Below are positions 28,977 through 41,641 of a stretch of 64,000 nucleotides of DNA, one piece after another; the stretch's first letter is position 1; each line of letters begins with the position of its first letter. Position numbers and translations under genes: made by a program. Under the pieces are notes generated by a model. The model searched no databases. It was not told where the DNA came from and saw nothing but the letters and a program-made list of their open reading frames with translations. The stretch spans positions 3,100,001 to 3,164,000 of the forward strand of contig NZ_CP017715.1 in assembly GCF_001854125.1 (NCBI RefSeq), given 5' to 3'. The DNA is from Marinobacter salinus. Lineage in GTDB: Bacteria > Pseudomonadota > Gammaproteobacteria > Pseudomonadales > Oleiphilaceae.

Positions 28977-29027
28977 AATTTTGCCTTCGCTATCCTGCGG
29001 AATAAATTTCCTGAGTTGCGGAGCGTC

Positions 29028-31154: not shown

Positions 31155-32105
31155 TTACGAACCGGAAGGAAAAACAACCTGCTCCGGGTTCAGGGAAGTA
31201 CCGTTCAGGATGCGGCTGCGATAGGACACAGCAGCGTCCGAACCCGCTGGCCACAGCTCGTCAAATCGGGCCAGCCAGGCTGCCACATCAAAGCTGACAG
31301 GCAGCAGGGAAATGTGGACGCCGCGTTGTTCGAAAGCGACTACCGGCTCAGTGGCGGGAGCGGACAACCCTATGCGGGTGATCAGGCCGCGAGGATCTGC
31401 CTGCAGGTTACCCATACCGGCAGAGCCGTTGTTGGCCACCACACGAGCGCAGTTTTCAACCTCACCGGACCAGAGCACGGGAAGGCAGGTGTGGGTGCAG
31501 GCAATTACATCGGCCCCGGTGTCCCGCAGCCACCCGCACAGAGCTGATTCATTAGCGGCGCTAAAGGATTCATGGGCCAACCCCCAACCGGCAAGAGATT
31601 CCGGATCACCATGGAGAACAAGAACCTTTAGTCCTCCAAACATCAAGCATTGATACCGTGGCAAAAGCGCCAGCTTCTCTTGTATATCCGGGTGCTGTTC
31701 TGCCACACCCTGGAGTTTCTCCATGATGCGATTGGAGCGCTCTACCACGCCCTGGTCGACAAACTCAGGGTAGGCGCAACCACACCCGGCACCGGCACTG
31801 GCATTCGCCAGTTCGTATTCAACATTGCCAAGACTTGCGGTGTGGGCCAGCACCCGTTTATTGATATCCTGGAACAGCGTGTCATCGGCGTTAAACCAGT
31901 TGAAATCGCCATTGAAAACAAGCCTTACCCTACGGCCCTGGCGTTCCTCGGCAAGCGCCATCTGCTCAATAGCATCAAGAGCGAAGGGATTACCGTAGAG
32001 CCCGCCAACAATATAAAGCACATCTTCCGACACCTCGGTCGGCTCCCGACACAGCGACTCCGGCGCGTATCGATAAGCCAGGGGACAACTACGGCCTTCA
32101 CTCAT
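31155..32105 (-). CDS. Calcineurin-like metallophosphoesterase
   Basis: A 316-residue cytoplasmic protein with the metallophosphoesterase pattern: a YIVGGLYGNPFALDAI start (D/GxHGN variant: GLYGN), FNGDFNWFN in place of GDxxDRG, LHGDPE, THTCLPVLW and a NNGSAGM loop. Several of these motifs are unusual, for example the first metal motif lacks the usual D-x-H, so metal binding or activity may differ. It follows the sodium:solute symporter by nine bases, so translation is probably coupled. The GAGGTG before its ATG supports the start. Likely acts on a phosphorylated small molecule imported or made by the cluster; substrate unknown. Confidence 0.75.
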   Translation of the reverse strand: MSEGRSCPLAYRYAPESLCREPTEVSEDVLYIVGGLYGNPFALDAIEQMALAEERQGRRVRLVFNGDFNWFNADDTLFQDINKRVLAHTASLGNVEYELANASAGAGCGCAYPEFVDQGVVERSNRIMEKLQGVAEQHPDIQEKLALLPRYQCLMFGGLKVLVLHGDPESLAGWGLAHESFSAANESALCGWLRDTGADVIACTHTCLPVLWSGEVENCARVVANNGSAGMGNLQADPRGLITRIGLSAPATEPVVAFEQRGVHISLLPVSFDVAAWLARFDELWPAGSDAAVSYRSRILNGTSLNPEQVVFPSGS

Positions 32106-32114
32106 GGTGACACC

Positions 32115-33518
32115 TCACACTTCTCCAGCCGCCAGCGAACGCCCGGCCAAACGCCGGAAAGCCAGCGGCAGAAAAAAACCGCCGGTACAGATCAGGAAAC
32201 CATACGCGTTCACCCCGAGCAGCATGGCGTACTTGCCATCCCCGATCGCCCAGCCGTCCGGAATCAGACCCACCGCCAGCAACACCCCAAGGCCCAGTCC
32301 TGTCCAGAAACTGAGATGAAAACTCCAGGGCGACCATTTGGTAAAACCGTAGAACAGGAACACCGGCGCAAGCCCCATCACCATCGTGCCGGAAATTGTG
32401 GTGGCCTTGAGAATATCGGTACCGGCAAACATCGGGAGATTGCCCGCGAAAGCGAAGATAATCATCACCACAGCTCCGACACGGACACTGGGCAGCGTGT
32501 CCTTTGCCCGCTGAGCCAGGCGCGGCAGGTCCACCGCCAGCGACTTGGCCAGCGATGTAAAGGTGGAATCCAGCGTTGAACCTGCGGATGTCATCATCAC
32601 CACACTCATGAAAAACAAGGCTGCGAGCCCCAGGGACTGCCCGACCGCCGCTGGCGCATTGCCCATCGCATCAATACCATTGATCCGGGCATGCACGCCG
32701 ACCAGGCTGAAAATAAACACCGCCACAAAACCCAGCAAACCCGCAACCACAAAGCTTTTGAGCATGGTTTTTTCTTTATTTACAAAGCCCCGATCGGTTA
32801 GCACCGGGTCATGAAACGGATAACTGAACATCTGCAGCAGCGCCACCAGCAACAGATCAAAACCCGCATCCAGCCTGAATTCGCCGTTGCTCAGCAACAC
32901 GCTGGTGTCGTTCGCCGGGACAATGAGGAAAAGCACCGCGCCGACAAAGAACACGAAGACAAACGCCTGAATCACATCGGTGAAAATCGACGAACGCAAC
33001 CCGCCCTTGAGACTGTAGGCAAGCGTAAAAACGGTGAATAGCATGGCGGCGGCGTAGTACTCCCATTCGCCCGGCAGGCCAAAGTAACCGCCCACCACCG
33101 CAGTGTTACTCCACACCTCATTATAAAGCCGGATCAGAATCGCCGCCGCGAACGCCAGAGACGCCAGCCGGCCAAACCGCGAGGTCAGGAAATCCTGCAG
33201 ACTCCGGGCCCCGGTCTGGGTCCGGATCAGATAGATGATGTAACCGGCCACCGGAATTGACAGCCAGTAACTGGCATAGGCCAGCCCCCCGGTGACGCCA
33301 TAGGCGGCGCCCAGGTTAGCCGCGTTGGTCACCGACTTGGCAAAAATCCAGCTGATAAAAATACTCGCGGTCAGCGACCACTGACCCACCGGATTACCCT
33401 GATCATCGGCACCTTTGTAAAAGGAATTCGCGTTCTTGCTCCGAGGCGACAGTACATACATCACAATGCCGTAAACCACCAGAAACCCCCAGAACAGGGC
33501 ACCCTCAAACGTCGTCAT
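32115..33518 (-). CDS. Sodium:solute symporter (SSS family)
   Basis: A 467-residue inner-membrane transporter with 12-13 hydrophobic segments. It looks like the SSS (SLC5/PutP-like) family, including SLTASIFISWIFAKSVTNAANLGAAYG near residue 50 and GARSLQDFLTSRFGR, which carry the Na+ site-2-like helix breaks. Substrates of the family include sugars, amino acids, nucleosides and osmolytes; nothing in the sequence indicates which. It lies between the radical SAM gene (114-base gap) and the phosphoesterase in a single-direction cluster. Confidence 0.9.
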   Translation of the reverse strand: MTTFEGALFWGFLVVYGIVMYVLSPRSKNANSFYKGADDQGNPVGQWSLTASIFISWIFAKSVTNAANLGAAYGVTGGLAYASYWLSIPVAGYIIYLIRTQTGARSLQDFLTSRFGRLASLAFAAAILIRLYNEVWSNTAVVGGYFGLPGEWEYYAAAMLFTVFTLAYSLKGGLRSSIFTDVIQAFVFVFFVGAVLFLIVPANDTSVLLSNGEFRLDAGFDLLLVALLQMFSYPFHDPVLTDRGFVNKEKTMLKSFVVAGLLGFVAVFIFSLVGVHARINGIDAMGNAPAAVGQSLGLAALFFMSVVMMTSAGSTLDSTFTSLAKSLAVDLPRLAQRAKDTLPSVRVGAVVMIIFAFAGNLPMFAGTDILKATTISGTMVMGLAPVFLFYGFTKWSPWSFHLSFWTGLGLGVLLAVGLIPDGWAIGDGKYAMLLGVNAYGFLICTGGFFLPLAFRRLAGRSLAAGEV

Positions 33519-33632
33519 CGCATAAATCCACGTTGTTATTTACGAACAGCACGGTGAACCGCGCGGTCTGTGGGGTGGAAATTAATTCCCGCCCCGCAGG
33601 CCGCCAACTCCCAGCCAGCAGGCCTAACAAAC

Positions 33633-34603
33633 TCAACCGGGCGCCGAACAACTGGCCCCAAACCGGTAACAGGAAAAGCACCGGTGATGCCGCAACATAA
33701 TGCGCTCATCCATGCTTTCCGCCAGCGACCCACCCAAATCGTACTGCGGATCGTCATCCACCAAAGTACAGGCATAGACCCGAACCTGGTCTCCCTTCTT
33801 GACCAGCATCCGTGTATAGGTGCACATAAAGTGGGAACGTGCCTCCTCCGTAGGATACTTCTCCATACACGTTTCCGTGATCTCCGGGCTACCGTCTTCC
33901 GACCCCGGTGTGCCCAGGTCCGGAAACGCGGTGAACGCCAGATTCTCTGGAATGCTCCAGGCCCGGAAAATGTCGCGGAATGCCGCCTCGACGTCCGCGG
34001 GGCTTTCCTCGGGATCCGTCTGGCGGGCGATTGAAACCTTGAAACCCTGTTCGATCAGCCAGTGAACACCCTCCAGGGCCTGATCAAAACTGCCTTCCCC
34101 CGATCCTTGTCATGACGGGCGCGATCCGGAAAATCCAGGCTGACACGGAAGTGGATCGGGTAGGGATTTTCCAGCAAGGGCAGCACCTGCGCCCGGCGCT
34201 TGAGCAACGGCTCGGTGGCGTTGGTAAGTACGAAGCAGGGACGGTGCTGACTGGCATAATCGAGAATATTGACAAAATCCCGGATCACAAATGGCTCACC
34301 GCCGGTGAAGGAAAACTGTTCCACGCCCATGTCGATGGCTTCATGGATGAACGGCTTCACATCACTCAACTTCATTCCCGGAATCCGGCCATCGCCGGGA
34401 TGGGAGCCTTCAAGGCAGAATGGGCAGGCCAGGTTGCAGGCCGTGCCGGTGTGGATCCACAGCTCTTTCAGCCTGTTCGCATCAATGTATCCACGCGGGT
34501 CGCCGTTGCGGGTATGAGTCCAGCTGTCGAATGCCCTGGGTTCCAGGACCTCCACGGCCGGAATACGTTTTCTGCGGGCCGTCGGGGTTTCAATCTGGGA
34601 CAT
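33633..34603 (-). pseudogene. Radical SAM protein gene with C-terminal Cys cluster, one-base frameshift
   Basis: ATG at 34603, preceded by AGGAG, begins a radical SAM enzyme with CNLACPFC (CxxxCxxC, SAM-cluster ligands), GVEQFSFTGGEPFV and a TIM-barrel body. The first frame stops at 34055, but one extra base in the C5 run at 34097-34101 restores a continuous frame to 33633 (323 residues). The restored C-terminus holds many cysteines (CTYTRM, VYACTLVDDD, CFSCYRFGASCS), suggesting SPASM/Twitch-type auxiliary iron-sulfur clusters. No recognised substrate class; it does not look like ArsS or a known peptide-modifying SPASM enzyme to me. A 13-base overlap with the upstream TVP38-flavoenzyme gene argues for one operon. 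Confidence 0.8.
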
Positions 34604-36779
34604 AGAGACTCCTCGGTGTTTTCGTGTCTTTGCCACGGCGCCAGCCGTGCAGCTTTTCCAGCAATTTCAGAATGCCGGCAGGGGCGTGGGCTCGCTTCCA
34701 TTCGCCGGCGGCGAATTTTGCGGATTCGTTCCAGGTCGGGTAGGGGTGGATGGTACCCAGAATCTTGTTCAGGCCCAGACCGTGCTTCATGGCCAAAGTA
34801 AACTCGGCCAGGATTTCACCGGCATGGGCACCAACCACCACCGCACCCAGTATCTTGTCCTTGCCTGGGGGTGTGAGCACCTTGATGAATCCATAGTCTT
34901 CGCTCTCCGCAATCGCCCGATCCAGATCGTCCAGGCCGTATCGGGTAACTTCAAAGGCAATGCCTTTCTCTGTGGCTTCGGCTTCGCTCAGCCCCACCCG
35001 GGCCACTTCCGGCGAGGTAAAAGTCACCCATGGCATCACCCGGTAGTCCACCCTGAACCGTTTGAACTGACCGAACAGGCCGTTCACCGCGGCATACCAG
35101 GCCTGATGCGCTGCCGCATGAGTGAACTGATAGGGGCCGGCCACATCGCCACAGGCAAACACGTTCGGATAACGCAGGCTCATGTCCTCTTCCACCGGCA
35201 CGGTGCCGTTAGGCAGGGGCTCGATACCAATTTTGTCGAGCCCGAGGCCTTTGGTATTTGCTGCACGCCCCACCGCCACCAGCACCTTATCGAAGGTAAT
35301 ACGAACCCGCTCGCCCTTATGCTCGCAGTAGACCACTTTCTCGCCTTCTTCGATGGCGAACTCTTTCGCCGCATGTCCCAGGCGAACGTCAATTCCATCA
35401 TTTTCGAACCGGGATTTCACCAGCTCGGATACATCACTGTCTTCTTTCGCCAACAACCGGTCGCCCATTTCCACCTGAATCACCTTGCTACCCAGACGGG
35501 CAAAGGCATGGGCCAGCTCGGAACCGATGGGACCACCGCCCAGCACCAGCAAACGCTCCGGCTGCTCCTGCAGAGCCCAGAGGTTGTCAGAATTCAAAGG
35601 ATCCATGTCAGCAAGCCCTGGAATCGGTGGCATGGCCGGTTTGCCACCTGTCGCAACAACAATACTCCGCGCCGTCAACCGTTCAGTGTGACCATCGGTG
35701 TGCCTGACCTCCAGCTCCCAGGGGGATACGAAGCTTGCCTCACCAGAGATGCAATCCACGCCCAGTTTGCGGTAGCGCTCAGGGGAATCGTGGGGCTCGA
35801 CCTTGGCAATCACGTCCTGAACGCGGTTCATGATGTTCTTGAACGAGCCTTTCACCGGCACTGACTCCAGACCGTAACGGTTGGCGTGACGAAGCGTATC
35901 CGCTGCTTTGGCACTTCGAATCAGAGCCTTGGAGGGAACACAACCGGTGTTGAGGCAGTCGCCACCCATCTTGTGCTTTTCGATCAGGGCCACCTTGGCC
36001 TTAACGGCTGCAGCGATGTAGGCGGAAACCAGCCCGGCAGAGCCGCCGCCAATAACCAGTAGGTTGTAGTCAAAATGCTCAGGCTTCTGCCAGCCGGAAT
36101 ACACTTTGCGGCGGCGAATAAAACCGACCACAAACTTGGCAATCAGGGGGAAGAGCCCAAGCAGGGCAAAAGACAGCAGCAGATCGGCAGAAACAATATC
36201 ACCGGTGGACTGGATCTGGCCAAGCTGGGTGCCGGCGTTCACATACACAAAGGTGCCCGGCAGCATGGCAACCCAGCTCACGAGAGCGTAGGTGCGCAGC
36301 TTCATGCCAGTCAGGCCCATGGCCAGGTTGATCAGGAAAAACGGAAAGACCGGCACCAGGCGCAGGGTCGCAAGATAGAAAGCCCCGTCCTTTTCGATGC
36401 CACGATCCATTTTCGCCACCGTCTCGGCATAGCGCCTGCGCAAGGTATCGCGCATCAGAAAGCGAGCCACCAGAAATGCGAGGGATGCCCCCACGGTTGA
36501 GGCGATGGAAACCGCGGCCAAACCGTAAAGGTTACCGAAGAAAGCACCACCGGCCAGGGTCATAATGGTAGCCCCGGGGAGTGACAGTGCTGTAACCACC
36601 ACATAGACCGCGACAAAACCAAACACCGCAACCACCAGGTTCTGACTGATCCAGTTATCCAGAACCTGTTGGTTTTCCTTGAGATTCTCAAGCGTTAGAA
36701 GCTCACCACCACCGCTGGCGATAAAACCGATGACGACAGCCGCAATCAACGCGACCAGAATCCATTTTTTCAATGTCAT
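34590..36779 (-). CDS. TVP38/TMEM64 membrane domain fused to pyridine-nucleotide disulfide oxidoreductase
   Basis: ATG at 36779 gives 729 residues. Residues ~1-220 form a TVP38/TMEM64 (SNARE-associated Golgi/DedA-like) membrane domain with LPGATIMTLAGGAFFGN and LRLVPVFPFFLINLAMGLTG. Residues ~240-729 form a mercuric-reductase/lipoamide-dehydrogenase-like flavoprotein: FAD site LLVIGGGSAGLVSAYIAA, redox-active pair GGDCLNTGCVPSKAL, NAD site LVLGGGPIGSELAHAF, and FACGDVAGPYQFTHAAAHQAWYAA. No N-terminal heavy-metal-associated domain or vicinal C-terminal Cys pair is seen, so it is unlikely to be a mercuric reductase itself. It probably moves electrons to a membrane-linked acceptor. Confidence 0.9.
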   Translation of the reverse strand: MTLKKWILVALIAAVVIGFIASGGGELLTLENLKENQQVLDNWISQNLVVAVFGFVAVYVVVTALSLPGATIMTLAGGAFFGNLYGLAAVSIASTVGASLAFLVARFLMRDTLRRRYAETVAKMDRGIEKDGAFYLATLRLVPVFPFFLINLAMGLTGMKLRTYALVSWVAMLPGTFVYVNAGTQLGQIQSTGDIVSADLLLSFALLGLFPLIAKFVVGFIRRRKVYSGWQKPEHFDYNLLVIGGGSAGLVSAYIAAAVKAKVALIEKHKMGGDCLNTGCVPSKALIRSAKAADTLRHANRYGLESVPVKGSFKNIMNRVQDVIAKVEPHDSPERYRKLGVDCISGEASFVSPWELEVRHTDGHTERLTARSIVVATGGKPAMPPIPGLADMDPLNSDNLWALQEQPERLLVLGGGPIGSELAHAFARLGSKVIQVEMGDRLLAKEDSDVSELVKSRFENDGIDVRLGHAAKEFAIEEGEKVVYCEHKGERVRITFDKVLVAVGRAANTKGLGLDKIGIEPLPNGTVPVEEDMSLRYPNVFACGDVAGPYQFTHAAAHQAWYAAVNGLFGQFKRFRVDYRVMPWVTFTSPEVARVGLSEAEATEKGIAFEVTRYGLDDLDRAIAESEDYGFIKVLTPPGKDKILGAVVVGAHAGEILAEFTLAMKHGLGLNKILGTIHPYPTWNESAKFAAGEWKRAHAPAGILKLLEKLHGWRRGKDTKTPRSLYVPD

Positions 36780-36972
36780 GAAATAATCCCTGCTAACCTG
36801 AACGTGATGCTGAAAAGACACGCCAGTCTCGGAAGTGTTACACCAGCCCTGTCGGTTTTGCTTACTTTACCGGTCTAATGGTGTTGTACGTCGTTCTTGC
36901 CGGCATTGTGTCAACGATTGCTCATGAATATCTAACAATTTGGTCACGGTCCCCTGATGGTGTGCCCCCCAG

Positions 36973-37039: not shown

Positions 37040-37657
37040 ATGGCCGCTCCAGCCCCCCTCGGGGAGGAAGCACTGATTCAGAGCATGAAAGCGGGAGACG
37101 ATCATTCCTATCAGGAGGCCGTGCGCACCTTTACGCCCGGTATGTTGGCGGTCGCCCGTTTCTACCTGGACCACTCAAGCGCCGAGGAAATCGTCCAGGA
37201 CTGCTGGGTCACCGTCATTGATGCCATCCACAAGTTCGAAGGCCGCTCCGGTCTGAAAACCTGGTTGCACCGCATCGTCGCCAACCGCTGCAAGAACCGG
37301 CTTCGGTCCAGCAACCGGGAAGTCCCCACGGATTTTTCCGAGAGCCTCGAGCCGGAACTGGCGGGACGTTTCAACGCCAAAGGCCGATGGGATCTGCCGC
37401 CCAAGATGCAATTCCACGACTCCGCAGACAAGTTGATGGAAAACGGCGCCCTCAGCGATTGCCTGGATAAACACCTTTCCGCCCTGCCAGAAACCCAGCG
37501 CTCAGCCCTGATGCTGTATGAAGCCCACCAGCACAAATCCGATGATGTCTGTAACATTCTGGATGTAAGCGCCTCTAACCTTCGTGTACTTTTACACCGT
37601 GCGAGGCAGAAAATCTTTCTGATGGTCGAAACCTTCCAGGAGACTGGCGAATGCTGA
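37040..37657 (+). CDS. ECF-family RNA polymerase sigma factor
   Basis: ATG at 37040 with AAGGGA upstream gives 205 residues. Region 2 is present (YQEAVRTFTPGMLAVARFYLDHSSAEEIVQDCWVTVIDAIHKFEGRSGLKTWLHRIVANRCKNRL) and region 4 as LSALPETQRSALMLYEAHQHKSDDVCNILDVSASNLRVLLHRARQKI. The length and motif set are typical ECF. The last seven bases overlap the start of an anti-sigma-like gene, a standard arrangement. Its natural signal may concern the adjacent cysteine-rich cytochrome unit; this is inference. Confidence 0.93.
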   Translation: MAAPAPLGEEALIQSMKAGDDHSYQEAVRTFTPGMLAVARFYLDHSSAEEIVQDCWVTVIDAIHKFEGRSGLKTWLHRIVANRCKNRLRSSNREVPTDFSESLEPELAGRFNAKGRWDLPPKMQFHDSADKLMENGALSDCLDKHLSALPETQRSALMLYEAHQHKSDDVCNILDVSASNLRVLLHRARQKIFLMVETFQETGEC

Positions 37658-37908
37658 TGTGCAGGGATCTGGCTGTGGTTGCCAGTGATTACATCGATGG
37701 CGAATTGGCCGGTCTGCAGAACCTGTCCGTTAAGATGCACCTGATGATGTGCAGGGACTGCCGAACCTTTATTGGCAACCTCCGGGCGAGCACCGAACTC
37801 ATGAAGGCGCACTCCTCCATTCGTCCGGATGAGGAATTTATGCGTCGGATTGATGAGCGGGTCGCCGAAGCCCTTAAGGCCAGGAAAGAAGATAGTGGCG
37901 ATGGGTAA
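37651..37908 (+). CDS. Zinc-finger (zf-HC2/ZAS-like) anti-sigma factor
   Basis: An 85-residue cytoplasmic protein. The motif HLMMCRDC (His-x3-Cys-x2-Cys) after an N-terminal CRDLAVVASDYIDGEL is the HxxxCxxC zinc-binding signature of ZAS anti-sigma factors. No TM segment. The gene overlaps the sigma gene by seven bases. It presumably binds and inhibits the preceding sigma factor, releasing it on oxidation or metal stress. Confidence 0.85.
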   Translation: MLMCRDLAVVASDYIDGELAGLQNLSVKMHLMMCRDCRTFIGNLRASTELMKAHSSIRPDEEFMRRIDERVAEALKARKEDSGDG

Positions 37909-37957: not shown

Positions 37958-38686
37958 CTACCCCTGGTGAATATCGCCCGATTGAGTCCTTGTTTGAAGT
38001 TCTGCTTCCAGTTTTTCTGCCCAGCTCTCAACGTCAATCGGTACTGTCCCTGTAATCTCCAGTGAACGGTCCTCAAGCACCTGCTCAAGACCCTCTTCCT
38101 GCCATTTTGAGACAACCTCGTCCCGGTGATGAAGCAAGGCTTCGATCTGTGGTCTGAAACAACGCACCATCGCCGTCAGCCAACGATTCACCGGCCAGCT
38201 CGGATAGGCGTGGTCCATGGCAAACTGGTCGAGTGCAGTCACGATCACCCCCGCTGGCAGCCAGCTTTCATCCGTCACCCAGCGGTTAACCGCAAACAAA
38301 TCGGTCGGGTAGCCCCAGGCGTCCATGGAAACGGCAACAAGGTGAGCGACACGATCCTCTCCGGTCGGGCCCAAAGCCGGCTCAAGACCTTCGGGCAGTG
38401 CCGGGTTGCGAAGGAAAAGATGAAAATGCCCGTGCTCATCATGATCGTCCCGATGGGCATGATAGTAATACTGGGACGCTGTATCACTATCATAGACGTC
38501 GTCCTTCGGGTAATGATCCATTTCATAAAATGGACCCTGCCCCCTCAGTACTTCACCGACTATATTCAATCCCCCTTTTTGTAGTACCCGGTAGCATTCC
38601 CGAATATCGTCAATCGCCGCCAGGCTACTCAATAACTGGCTCCGACCAAGGCTCGCCAGTTTGGGGACCTCAAGCTCTGTCACCAT
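37958..38686 (-). CDS. DUF6969-like His-rich conserved protein
   Basis: ATG at 38686, with AAGGAG upstream, gives 242 residues; the upstream extension to 38752 has no better start. No signal peptide. A conspicuous segment, YYYHAHRDDHDEHGHFHLFL, is dense in His and Asp and could bind metal. I think this is the DUF6969 family but that is memory of pattern, not a search. It is the second gene after the cysteine-repeat cytochrome, with a 67-base gap on the same strand. Confidence 0.65.
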   Translation of the reverse strand: MVTELEVPKLASLGRSQLLSSLAAIDDIRECYRVLQKGGLNIVGEVLRGQGPFYEMDHYPKDDVYDSDTASQYYYHAHRDDHDEHGHFHLFLRNPALPEGLEPALGPTGEDRVAHLVAVSMDAWGYPTDLFAVNRWVTDESWLPAGVIVTALDQFAMDHAYPSWPVNRWLTAMVRCFRPQIEALLHHRDEVVSKWQEEGLEQVLEDRSLEITGTVPIDVESWAEKLEAELQTRTQSGDIHQG

Positions 38687-38753
38687 CTCTCGTCTCCTTG
38701 TAATGCGGCCCCGGCATAACCGCAGGCCGCGCTTGTCCGCCTTTTTCGCCAAG

Positions 38754-39602
38754 CTATGCAGCTGAACCTGTCAGGTCCTGTCCTGCATGTGCTGAACAGG
38801 GGTTCTTAACCGCACAGGGATTTTTTGTAGCACATGGGTTTTTCGTCGCACAGGGATTTTTTCCAGCGCACGGATTGCAGCCTCCGCATTTGCCTCTTTT
38901 AAGAGCACAGGGATTAGTTGCAAGCTGCTTGTGGACCTTACCCATATAGGCTGTCAGGGCCGCCAGTTGCTCTCCGTCCCATTCAAGAGGCTCGGCTGCC
39001 ATCGGCTGCACCATGCAAATCTGGACCATTTCATCCAGATGCACCGTATCCAGACCAAAGATATCACGGGCCATTGCTACAGAATGCGGGTAGGCGTTGG
39101 CGAAGGTCGCGTTGTAGCCCGCTCCGTTGTTGTGGCAGGTCGAGCATGACAGGCCATTAGCGCTGAGGGAGGGGTCGTTAAACAGCTTCTCGCCCATTGC
39201 CATCAGTTTGCACGGATTGCCCTCATACGGCTGATAGCTGACAGGCCGGGTCACCTTTTTAGCCGCACAGGGATTGGGTTTGGCGCCGCACTTACCCGCT
39301 GCTGCACACGGGTTGCACCCCTTCACTGCACAGGGATTACAGCCCTTGGTGGCGCACGGGTTCTTCGTGGCACAGGGATTTTTGGTCGCACATGGGTTTT
39401 TGGCCGCGCATGGATTGCAACCGGCCTTACAGTGTTGCCCGGCTTTGCACTTGCTCTTACAGAGGGAACACGGGCTGCAGGCCGCAACCGCCAGCCCGCC
39501 GTGGCCGAGCATGGCAGTCATCAGAGCTGCAGACCACCAGGCAGTGCACCGATGTTCACAGGAACTGCGAATGGCTTTCCTCAGAGGATGTATTGTGGAC
39601 AT
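38754..39602 (-). CDS. Exported cytochrome c-like protein with Cys-rich NPCATK hexapeptide repeats
   Basis: A 282-residue protein with an N-terminal export signal (AALMTAMLGHGGLAVA, cleavage near residue 40). Mature residues 42-112 hold 16 cysteines, many in NPCATK/NPCAAK hexapeptides or GCNPCA units; residues 230-269 hold another 8. Between them lies one class I-like cytochrome c domain with CSTCH heme motif at 153-157, and a possible distal Met near ICMVQPMAAEPL. The cysteines would have to stay reduced, be disulfide-bonded or hold metal in the periplasm. ATG at 39602 follows AGGGAGAG. Not a known copper-storage protein to me; a novel combination. Confidence 0.85.
   Translation of the reverse strand: MSTIHPLRKAIRSSCEHRCTAWWSAALMTAMLGHGGLAVAACSPCSLCKSKCKAGQHCKAGCNPCAAKNPCATKNPCATKNPCATKGCNPCAVKGCNPCAAAGKCGAKPNPCAAKKVTRPVSYQPYEGNPCKLMAMGEKLFNDPSLSANGLSCSTCHNNGAGYNATFANAYPHSVAMARDIFGLDTVHLDEMVQICMVQPMAAEPLEWDGEQLAALTAYMGKVHKQLATNPCALKRGKCGGCNPCAGKNPCATKNPCATKNPCAVKNPCSAHAGQDLTGSAA
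38793..38915 (-). repeat. C-terminal cysteine-repeat array (NPCATK units)
   Basis: Residues 230-270 of the cytochrome-like protein repeat NPCA-T/V/G-K at six-residue spacing, giving an 18-base period in DNA with 8 cysteines. Confidence 0.8.
39261..39419 (-). repeat. N-terminal cysteine-repeat array (NPCATK units)
   Basis: Residues 62-114 repeat NPCA-T/A-K and GCNPCA units with a dominant 18-base DNA period. The DNA-level similarity of neighbouring units suggests expansion by slippage or recombination. Confidence 0.8.
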
Positions 39603-40948: not shown

Positions 40949-41641
40949 TCAGGTCTCAGTGCCCAGATGCAGAAAACGCGACAATCGGGAGTGAGGACGC
41001 CTGCTGAGATACAGCGGCAAGGTGCTCATGACGATAAGAATTATGGCAGCGGCCACGACCGTCAGCACAGGACTGAGCTCAAAGCTGTGCCCCAGCCCGG
41101 CAAACACGAAGGTCATCGGCAGCATGCCGATGGTTGTCGCGAGCGCATAACGCCAGAGGGAGATTGCAGTGACACCGGCGGCATAACTGATCAGCGCAAA
41201 CGAAAACAGAGGAACCAGGCGCGTCAACGTCACCGCGATAAACAAGAAGCGCTGGGAGCCATTGGCCGAGAACACCGGGTGATCACCCAGTTTGCGCCGA
41301 ACCACTTCACGCCCGAGGATCCGCGCCAGGTAAAAAGCAATGATGGACCCCGCGAGAGCCCCCGTCACCGCGATTGCGGTTCCTGTGAACATGCCATAAA
41401 CAAGCCCGGCGGCGGCACTGATCGGCAGCGTGGGAATGGGTCCGACCACTACAGCAAGGATCATCATCAGCATCAGCAGCAGTGGCCCCGACACGCCCTG
41501 ATGGCCCAGCCAGTCAGACAGCGCTGAGGGCGCCAGACTGACGGGCATGCCCAGCTGGCGAAGCACCAGCCAGATTACAGCCATCACCAACGCTACAATG
41601 ACCAGAATGGAAAGACGGAAAACCCATTTTGAATGGTTCAT
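40949..41641 (-). CDS. TVP38/TMEM64 family membrane protein
   Basis: A 230-residue inner-membrane protein with five or six TM helices. The family signature VGPIPTLPISAAAGLVYGMFTG followed by FYLARILGREVVRRKLGD and LTRLVPLFSFALISYAAG is clear (DedA-related, possible lipid-scramblase-like fold). It differs from the fused version in the radical SAM cluster. It stands alone. Confidence 0.88.
   Translation of the reverse strand: MNHSKWVFRLSILVIVALVMAVIWLVLRQLGMPVSLAPSALSDWLGHQGVSGPLLLMLMMILAVVVGPIPTLPISAAAGLVYGMFTGTAIAVTGALAGSIIAFYLARILGREVVRRKLGDHPVFSANGSQRFLFIAVTLTRLVPLFSFALISYAAGVTAISLWRYALATTIGMLPMTFVFAGLGHSFELSPVLTVVAAAIILIVMSTLPLYLSRRPHSRLSRFLHLGTET

Follow-up and report, generated by a model that had tools for sequence, protein, structure and literature searches.

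Arsenosugars and arsenolipids are major organic forms of arsenic in the sea, where Marinobacter species are abundant hydrocarbon degraders. Knowledge of the bacterial steps comes chiefly from ArsM and ArsS of cyanobacteria. ArsS, a radical S-adenosylmethionine (SAM) enzyme cited in PMC12159101 and PMC8552651, adenosylates arsenic on the way to arsenosugars (Cheng et al. 2021, cited by PMC12159101). ArsL, encoded in the arsinothricin cluster arsQML, also makes a C–As bond; it has 428 residues and only the three cysteines of its CX3CX2C motif are conserved (PMC8552651). Here we analyse a 64,000-nucleotide stretch of Marinobacter salinus DNA (contig NZ_CP017715.1, positions 3,100,001 to 3,164,000; hereafter the window, whose numbering is used throughout) from a 4.12-Mb genome assembled as a single contig. 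Four genes, all on its minus strand, encode a TVP38/VTT membrane domain fused to a flavin adenine dinucleotide (FAD)/NAD(P)-disulphide oxidoreductase (the TVP38-FAD fusion, 34590..36779), a radical SAM protein (33633..34603), a sodium:solute symporter family protein (SSS/SSF; 32115..33518) and a divergent calcineurin-like, that is metallophosphoesterase-like, protein (MPE; 31155..32105). We read the four genes as the Marinobacter version of the gene set found with ArsS in other proteobacteria, in which a different, unnamed radical SAM family fills the ArsS position in an organoarsenical pathway and the flavoprotein, the symporter and the divergent MPE have accessory roles; we assign this reading a probability of about 0.6. 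The genomic evidence that links the radical SAM protein to arsenic is good, and it is the reaction that we infer.

The link is most direct outside the genus. In at least five families (f44, f23, f43, f34 and f8; f, g, G and L prefix our labels for families, genera, genomes and loci), relatives 52–75% identical to the Marinobacter radical SAM protein are encoded directly beside an arsM-like gene, the product of which resembles arsenite methyltransferases. The f8 block reads TIGR04282–arsM–radical SAM–arsC–5'-methylthioadenosine (MTA) phosphorylase–TIGR04283, and in f37 the order TIGR04283–MTA phosphorylase–radical SAM–TIGR04282 is found beside the TVP38-FAD fusion gene. In these blocks arsC stands for arsenate reductase, and TIGR04282 and TIGR04283 for the two glycosyltransferases labelled "arsenosugar". 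These neighbours score below the curated NCBIfam cut-offs (arsM-like, 180 of 263 bits; TIGR04282, 114 of 134; TIGR04283, 151 of 182; arsC, 140 of 174) and are thus divergent members of their families. The arsM-linked radical SAM proteins of f44 are 70–71% identical to that of Marinobacter and group with it in a tree. Judged by gene company, then, the protein keeps arsenosugar-pathway genes around it in other families, and the glycosyltransferase pair lies elsewhere in the window genome.

The same accessory genes surround arsS itself. A tblastn search of plasmids with MPE led out of the genus to Burkholderia glumae, in which an MPE homologue follows arsS. The B. glumae arsS region also holds TIGR04282, TIGR04283, MTA phosphorylase, an extracytoplasmic function (ECF) sigma factor, a zf-HC2 protein and a TVP38-FAD fusion, the last 51% identical to the window's fusion over 713 residues. 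Across beta- and gammaproteobacteria, the fusion, SSS and/or MPE occur in shuffled order with arsS, TIGR04282, TIGR04283, MTA phosphorylase or DUF3047, for example as arsS–SSS–MPE–fusion (L071), as fusion–TIGR04283–TIGR04282–SSS–MPE adjoining arsS (L072), or as arsS–fusion–DUF547–TIGR04283–TIGR04282 with divergent ECF, DUF3179 and GGDEF genes (L293). Some Marinobacter loci carry the accessories of L293 (divergent ECF, DUF3179, GGDEF and DUF547) around the radical SAM gene. ArsS clusters and the radical SAM loci have arsM, MTA phosphorylase, TIGR04282, TIGR04283, the TVP38-FAD fusion, MPE, SSS and an ECF sigma factor in common. We found no account of ArsS clusters with TVP38, SSS or MPE in the freely accessible literature; subscription journals may describe a second arsenosugar radical SAM family.

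The two radical SAM genes also avoid each other. Profile searches of 390 genomes of the order placed the radical SAM protein in 53 and ArsS in 125, with both in none where 17 were expected (naive probability 2e-10, overstated since the genomes are related). Both types occur, in different members, in families f23, f37, f39, f41, f43 and f44, once within a single genus (f44/g46). Of the 53 genomes with the radical SAM protein, 51 have TIGR04282, as do 124 of the 125 with ArsS, against 25 of the 212 with neither. A third family of radical SAM enzymes may exist in these last 25 genomes, which may otherwise hold remnants. ArsS is absent from the window genome, and the 37 Marinobacter genomes searched for it returned no convincing member, only weak generic radical SAM matches.

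On the available comparisons, the radical SAM protein is to be classed with ArsS-like systems by context and not with the ArsS family by sequence. Three relatives score 50–53 bits against the ArsS model TIGR04167 (cut-off 300), and an intact Marinobacter protein gives no match to it at 1e-10. Like ArsS, the protein has a CX3CX2C core (CNLACPFC) and a C-terminal C-x14/17-C...CxxC-x6/7-C pattern, so that it carries the motifs of that family; in the tree it falls far outside the ArsS clade, and the sequences are barely alignable. The Marinobacter, f44 and f36 proteins form one family there, far from ArsS. The C-terminal cysteines, spaced C-x17-C-x29-CxxC-x6-C in all 65 intact loci, suggest an auxiliary iron–sulphur cluster, a feature already proposed in the original prediction. 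No intact relative reaches any NCBIfam cut-off. The best-scoring named family is NF049973 (Rv1681), at 82–125 bits against a cut-off of 380 (101.5 for L074 and 124.6 for L218), with an alignment over the SAM-binding core that matches only about half of the profile; we know of no function for Rv1681. With no named cut-off reached, the enzyme falls outside the characterised reaction classes, as had been supposed. Assignments as MoaA, PqqE, a mycofactocin enzyme or a maturase of ribosomally synthesized and post-translationally modified peptides (RiPPs) were rejected, all scores being far under the respective cut-offs.

These comparisons bear on two alternatives. A RiPP maturase with merely incidental neighbours would accord with SkfB as the best solved-structure match and with scores of 54–73 bits for the StsB and WgkB models, but the cut-offs of those models, 625–650, are far higher, none of the open reading frames listed around the radical SAM gene was recognised as a precursor-peptide gene (no systematic search was made), and the gene stands among arsM and arsenosugar-type genes; we consider it very improbable. 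The second concerns ArsL. The arsQML cluster resembles the loci described here in placing a radical SAM gene by arsM together with a transporter gene, and differs in its enzyme, ours having about 320 residues and additional C-terminal cysteines. The protein might form the C–As bond by chemistry other than that of ArsS, for instance by the 3-amino-3-carboxypropyl transfer of ArsL, in which case the product would be an arsenic amino acid or the headgroup of an arsenolipid instead of an arsenosugar. The poor alignment to ArsS would suit such a reaction, ArsL shows that radical SAM C–As chemistry extends beyond ArsS (PMC8552651), and adjacency to arsM fits either chemistry. Mutual exclusion with ArsS speaks against this, as does the link to MTA phosphorylase, TIGR04282 and TIGR04283, whose genes are those that a ribose-type product would call for, and we regard ArsL-like chemistry as unlikely.

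In the window itself the radical SAM gene is broken. The N-terminal frame runs from the ATG at 34603 to a stop at 34055, and the C-terminal half resumes in another frame from about 34100 (34100–33633). Alignment places the lesion at 34093..34105, in a GGGGG run one base short relative to relatives: each of the seven relatives aligned across it has one extra base in the GATCGGGGGAAGGC stretch. All 23 relatives checked first have the gene as a single frame of about 320 residues, and a later set of 66 other Marinobacter-type loci contained 65 with an intact gene. Because the two halves retain 95% and 92% identity to the intact relative L074, we take the break to be either of recent origin or an error of one base in the assembly, and all statements on the family rest on intact relatives and not on the split gene. 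The original prediction had treated the radical SAM gene as a single gene; it was right about a conserved unit and missed both the frameshift and the arsenic context, which are visible in the relatives. An additional, unannotated copy of the radical SAM gene, followed by an SSS gene, lies on Marinobacter adhaerens HP15 plasmid pHP-187 (L302:12001-12940, NC_017507.1); it too is frameshifted, at a different place.

Within the genus, the four genes behave as a unit. The start of the radical SAM gene overlaps the end of the fusion gene by about 14 bases, a gap of 114 bases separates the radical SAM end (33633) from the SSS start (33518), and 9 bases lie between SSS and MPE; the originally reported same-strand layout, with a 13-base overlap and gaps of 114 and 9 bases, was accurate to within one base. 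The order fusion–radical SAM–SSS–MPE is kept throughout Marinobacter and its nearest neighbours, so that the conservation is genus-wide and not the property of one strain. Identities across relatives are mostly 80–95% for the radical SAM protein and SSS (82–96% for SSS across Marinobacter) against 60–78% for MPE, whose closest loci are nearly all from Marinobacter. The arrangement is more than chance, because SSS and MPE accompany the radical SAM gene in 59 of 59 long Marinobacter-type loci and the fusion in 56 of 59. The Marinobacter block always lies beside ectoine genes, which makes synteny within the genus weak evidence when taken alone and lends something to the idea that four unrelated housekeeping genes have merely stayed together in one genus. 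The genes overlap or nearly so, however, and the fusion, MPE and SSS recur with arsS, in shuffled orders, in other orders and classes; this recurrence outside the genus already contradicts the housekeeping explanation, to which we give very little credence.

The proteins encoded around the radical SAM gene differ in how securely they can be named. The fusion matches PF09335 (VTT_dom, 90.2 bits) and PF07992 (Pyr_redox_2, 202.3 bits) and carries the redox motif GGDCLNTGCVPSK; it does not reach the cut-offs of the MerA and lipoamide dehydrogenase equivalog models. SSS matches PF00474 at 43.2 bits (gathering score 22.8) and stays under the cut-off of TIGR00813. The window MPE has no Pfam or NCBIfam match, falling short of the gathering scores of PF00149 and PF12850, whereas 14 of 25 relatives match Metallophos_2, weakly (best E value 1.4e-6), so that the metallophosphoesterase label of the original prediction survives only in a weak form. 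Compared with calcineurin-like metallophosphoesterases such as LpxH, the GD, GN, HG and GHTx segments align weakly, but the complete set of metal ligands (DxH, GDxx, GNHx, H, GHxH) is lacking: the D-x-H of motif I is G-L-Y, the histidine of motif III is valine and the last histidine of GHTH is Cys207. Residues D67, N94, H165 and H205 are kept, and four cysteines (C7, C108, C110 and C207) are invariant in all 25 relatives. Since its metal-binding motifs are partly lost, MPE is only a putative phosphatase and may instead bind a thiophilic metalloid; the unusual phosphorylated metabolite once proposed for the pathway is possible only as an intermediate. In three loci (L144, L145 and L154), MPE is paired with an SSS subfamily different from the Marinobacter type (60–64% identical to the L070 type), from which it follows that the symporter can be swapped while MPE stays.

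Upstream of the fusion gene lies a conserved motif that forms a putative ECF-sigma promoter, TGTAAC-N15-GTGTC (36817..36842, minus strand). Facing away from the operon on the plus strand are genes for an ECF sigma factor (37041..37657, with a likely start at ATG 37041; the listed open reading frame starts at 36878) and a putative zf-HC2 anti-sigma factor (37651..37908; PF13490), a pair that adjoins the operon in 41 of the 59 long loci. Of 57 sequences, 46 have the motif ahead of the fusion gene, in every case with the 15-base spacing, and it has a single match in the window against 0.22 expected in shuffled sequence. In M. lipolyticus (L290:6627-17817), six TGTAAC-N15-(G/C)nGTC sites occur in 19 kb, several of them just upstream of genes for GGDEF, DUF3179 and ATP-grasp/tubulin-ligase-like proteins and of the fusion gene; this set is likely an ECF regulon. 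Caulobacter SigF, an ECF factor with a metal-stress context, recognises GTAACC-N16-CGAA (PMC3511200). The operon motif shares the GTAAC core of the –35 element with SigF-type regulons and differs in its TGTAAC-N15-GTGTC form, and we infer that the divergent ECF factor uses it. Most arsS loci lack the motif, as do most radical SAM loci outside Marinobacter, which leaves one common regulator for both systems unsupported.

Several observations weigh against the arsenosugar reading, its main weakness being the missing ArsM. With a close relative of the linked ArsM and the PRK11873 model as queries, and at the thresholds used, ArsM was found neither in the window genome nor in 17 of 25 Marinobacter genomes; the substrate would thus be methylarsenic from outside, or something else. 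The four-gene unit itself contains no arsenic gene, and MPE and SSS are missing from most radical SAM loci outside Marinobacter. The 25 genomes that have TIGR04282 with neither radical SAM gene, mostly of families f36, f39, f40 and f44, fit the pairing poorly, and the mutual exclusion treats related genomes as independent. The radical SAM protein and ArsS are so far apart in sequence that descent does not imply the same chemistry, and the "arsenosugar" names of TIGR04282 and TIGR04283 are NCBI labels only.

Some of these observations would suit an operon that has left arsenic chemistry and, from an arsenosugar ancestor, become an ECF-controlled stress pathway acting on another substrate, such as phosphorus, selenium or a small metabolite. 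Most Marinobacter genomes have no ArsM, MPE and SSS are Marinobacter-specific companions of the radical SAM protein, and in M. lipolyticus the conserved promoter motif also serves GGDEF and DUF3179 genes, among others. We nevertheless think such a departure improbable. ArsM is likewise missing from two of five ArsS genomes of the same sample (G039 and G044), and the nearest radical SAM relatives are arsM-linked. Marinobacter also retains a TIGR04283/TIGR04282 pair, found in all 25 genomes searched and lying side by side at 1834630-1835914 of the window genome with scores above the curated cut-offs, and the window genome has one MTA-phosphorylase-family gene, below the cut-off of its model. One Marinobacter genome (G021) carries an arsM of the radical SAM-linked type about 11 kb upstream of the fusion gene.

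The operon is flanked by ectA, ectB and aspartokinase genes on one side and by the divergent ECF sigma factor on the other. The ectB and aspartokinase genes are 51 bases apart (28977-29027) without ectC between them, as in other Marinobacter loci; ectC was not sought elsewhere. Beyond the sigma factor pair, the window encodes a cytochrome c-like protein (38754-39602) with one CxxCH surrounded by about a dozen cysteine-rich NPC(A/T)xKNPC repeats, and adjoining it a 264-residue protein (37958-38752) that is 32% identical to a protein encoded in the B. glumae arsS cluster; a minority of Marinobacter loci also have both genes next to the operon. Close to the fusion gene, the window encodes another TVP38/VTT protein, this one stand-alone (40949-41641), which many Marinobacter loci likewise have near the operon, on either strand.

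If the four genes do serve an organoarsenical pathway, its steps can be sketched by analogy. SSS would import methylated arsenic, and the radical SAM enzyme would form the C–As bond, most simply by moving, in the manner of ArsS, a 5'-deoxyadenosyl radical onto a trivalent methylarsenical. The adenine would next be stripped by an enzyme of the MTA-phosphorylase type, MPE might remove the sugar phosphate that this leaves, and the TIGR04282/TIGR04283 transferases would attach the aglycone. The TVP38-FAD fusion could supply reducing equivalents, reduce pentavalent arsenic, or keep arsenic or the iron–sulphur clusters reduced. The operon would be turned on by the divergent ECF sigma factor through the TGTAAC-N15-GTGTC promoter. 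More specifically, and as a tentative proposal that we hold at less than even odds, there may be two distinct, mutually exclusive radical SAM families for arsenosugar synthesis, with Marinobacter using the unnamed one in an ECF-controlled operon that turns SSS-imported methylated arsenic into arsenosugars or arsenolipids, aided by a cysteine-rich phosphoesterase-like protein adapted to arsenic.

Taken at the level of gene content, the loci suggest a second bacterial way to build organic arsenic compounds. Were this so, the likely producers would extend to Marinobacter and to several other gammaproteobacterial lineages that look arsS-negative. The radical SAM protein would be a new C–As bond-forming enzyme for comparison with ArsS and ArsL, and the TVP38-flavoprotein, the symporter and the odd phosphoesterase would join the list of pathway genes.

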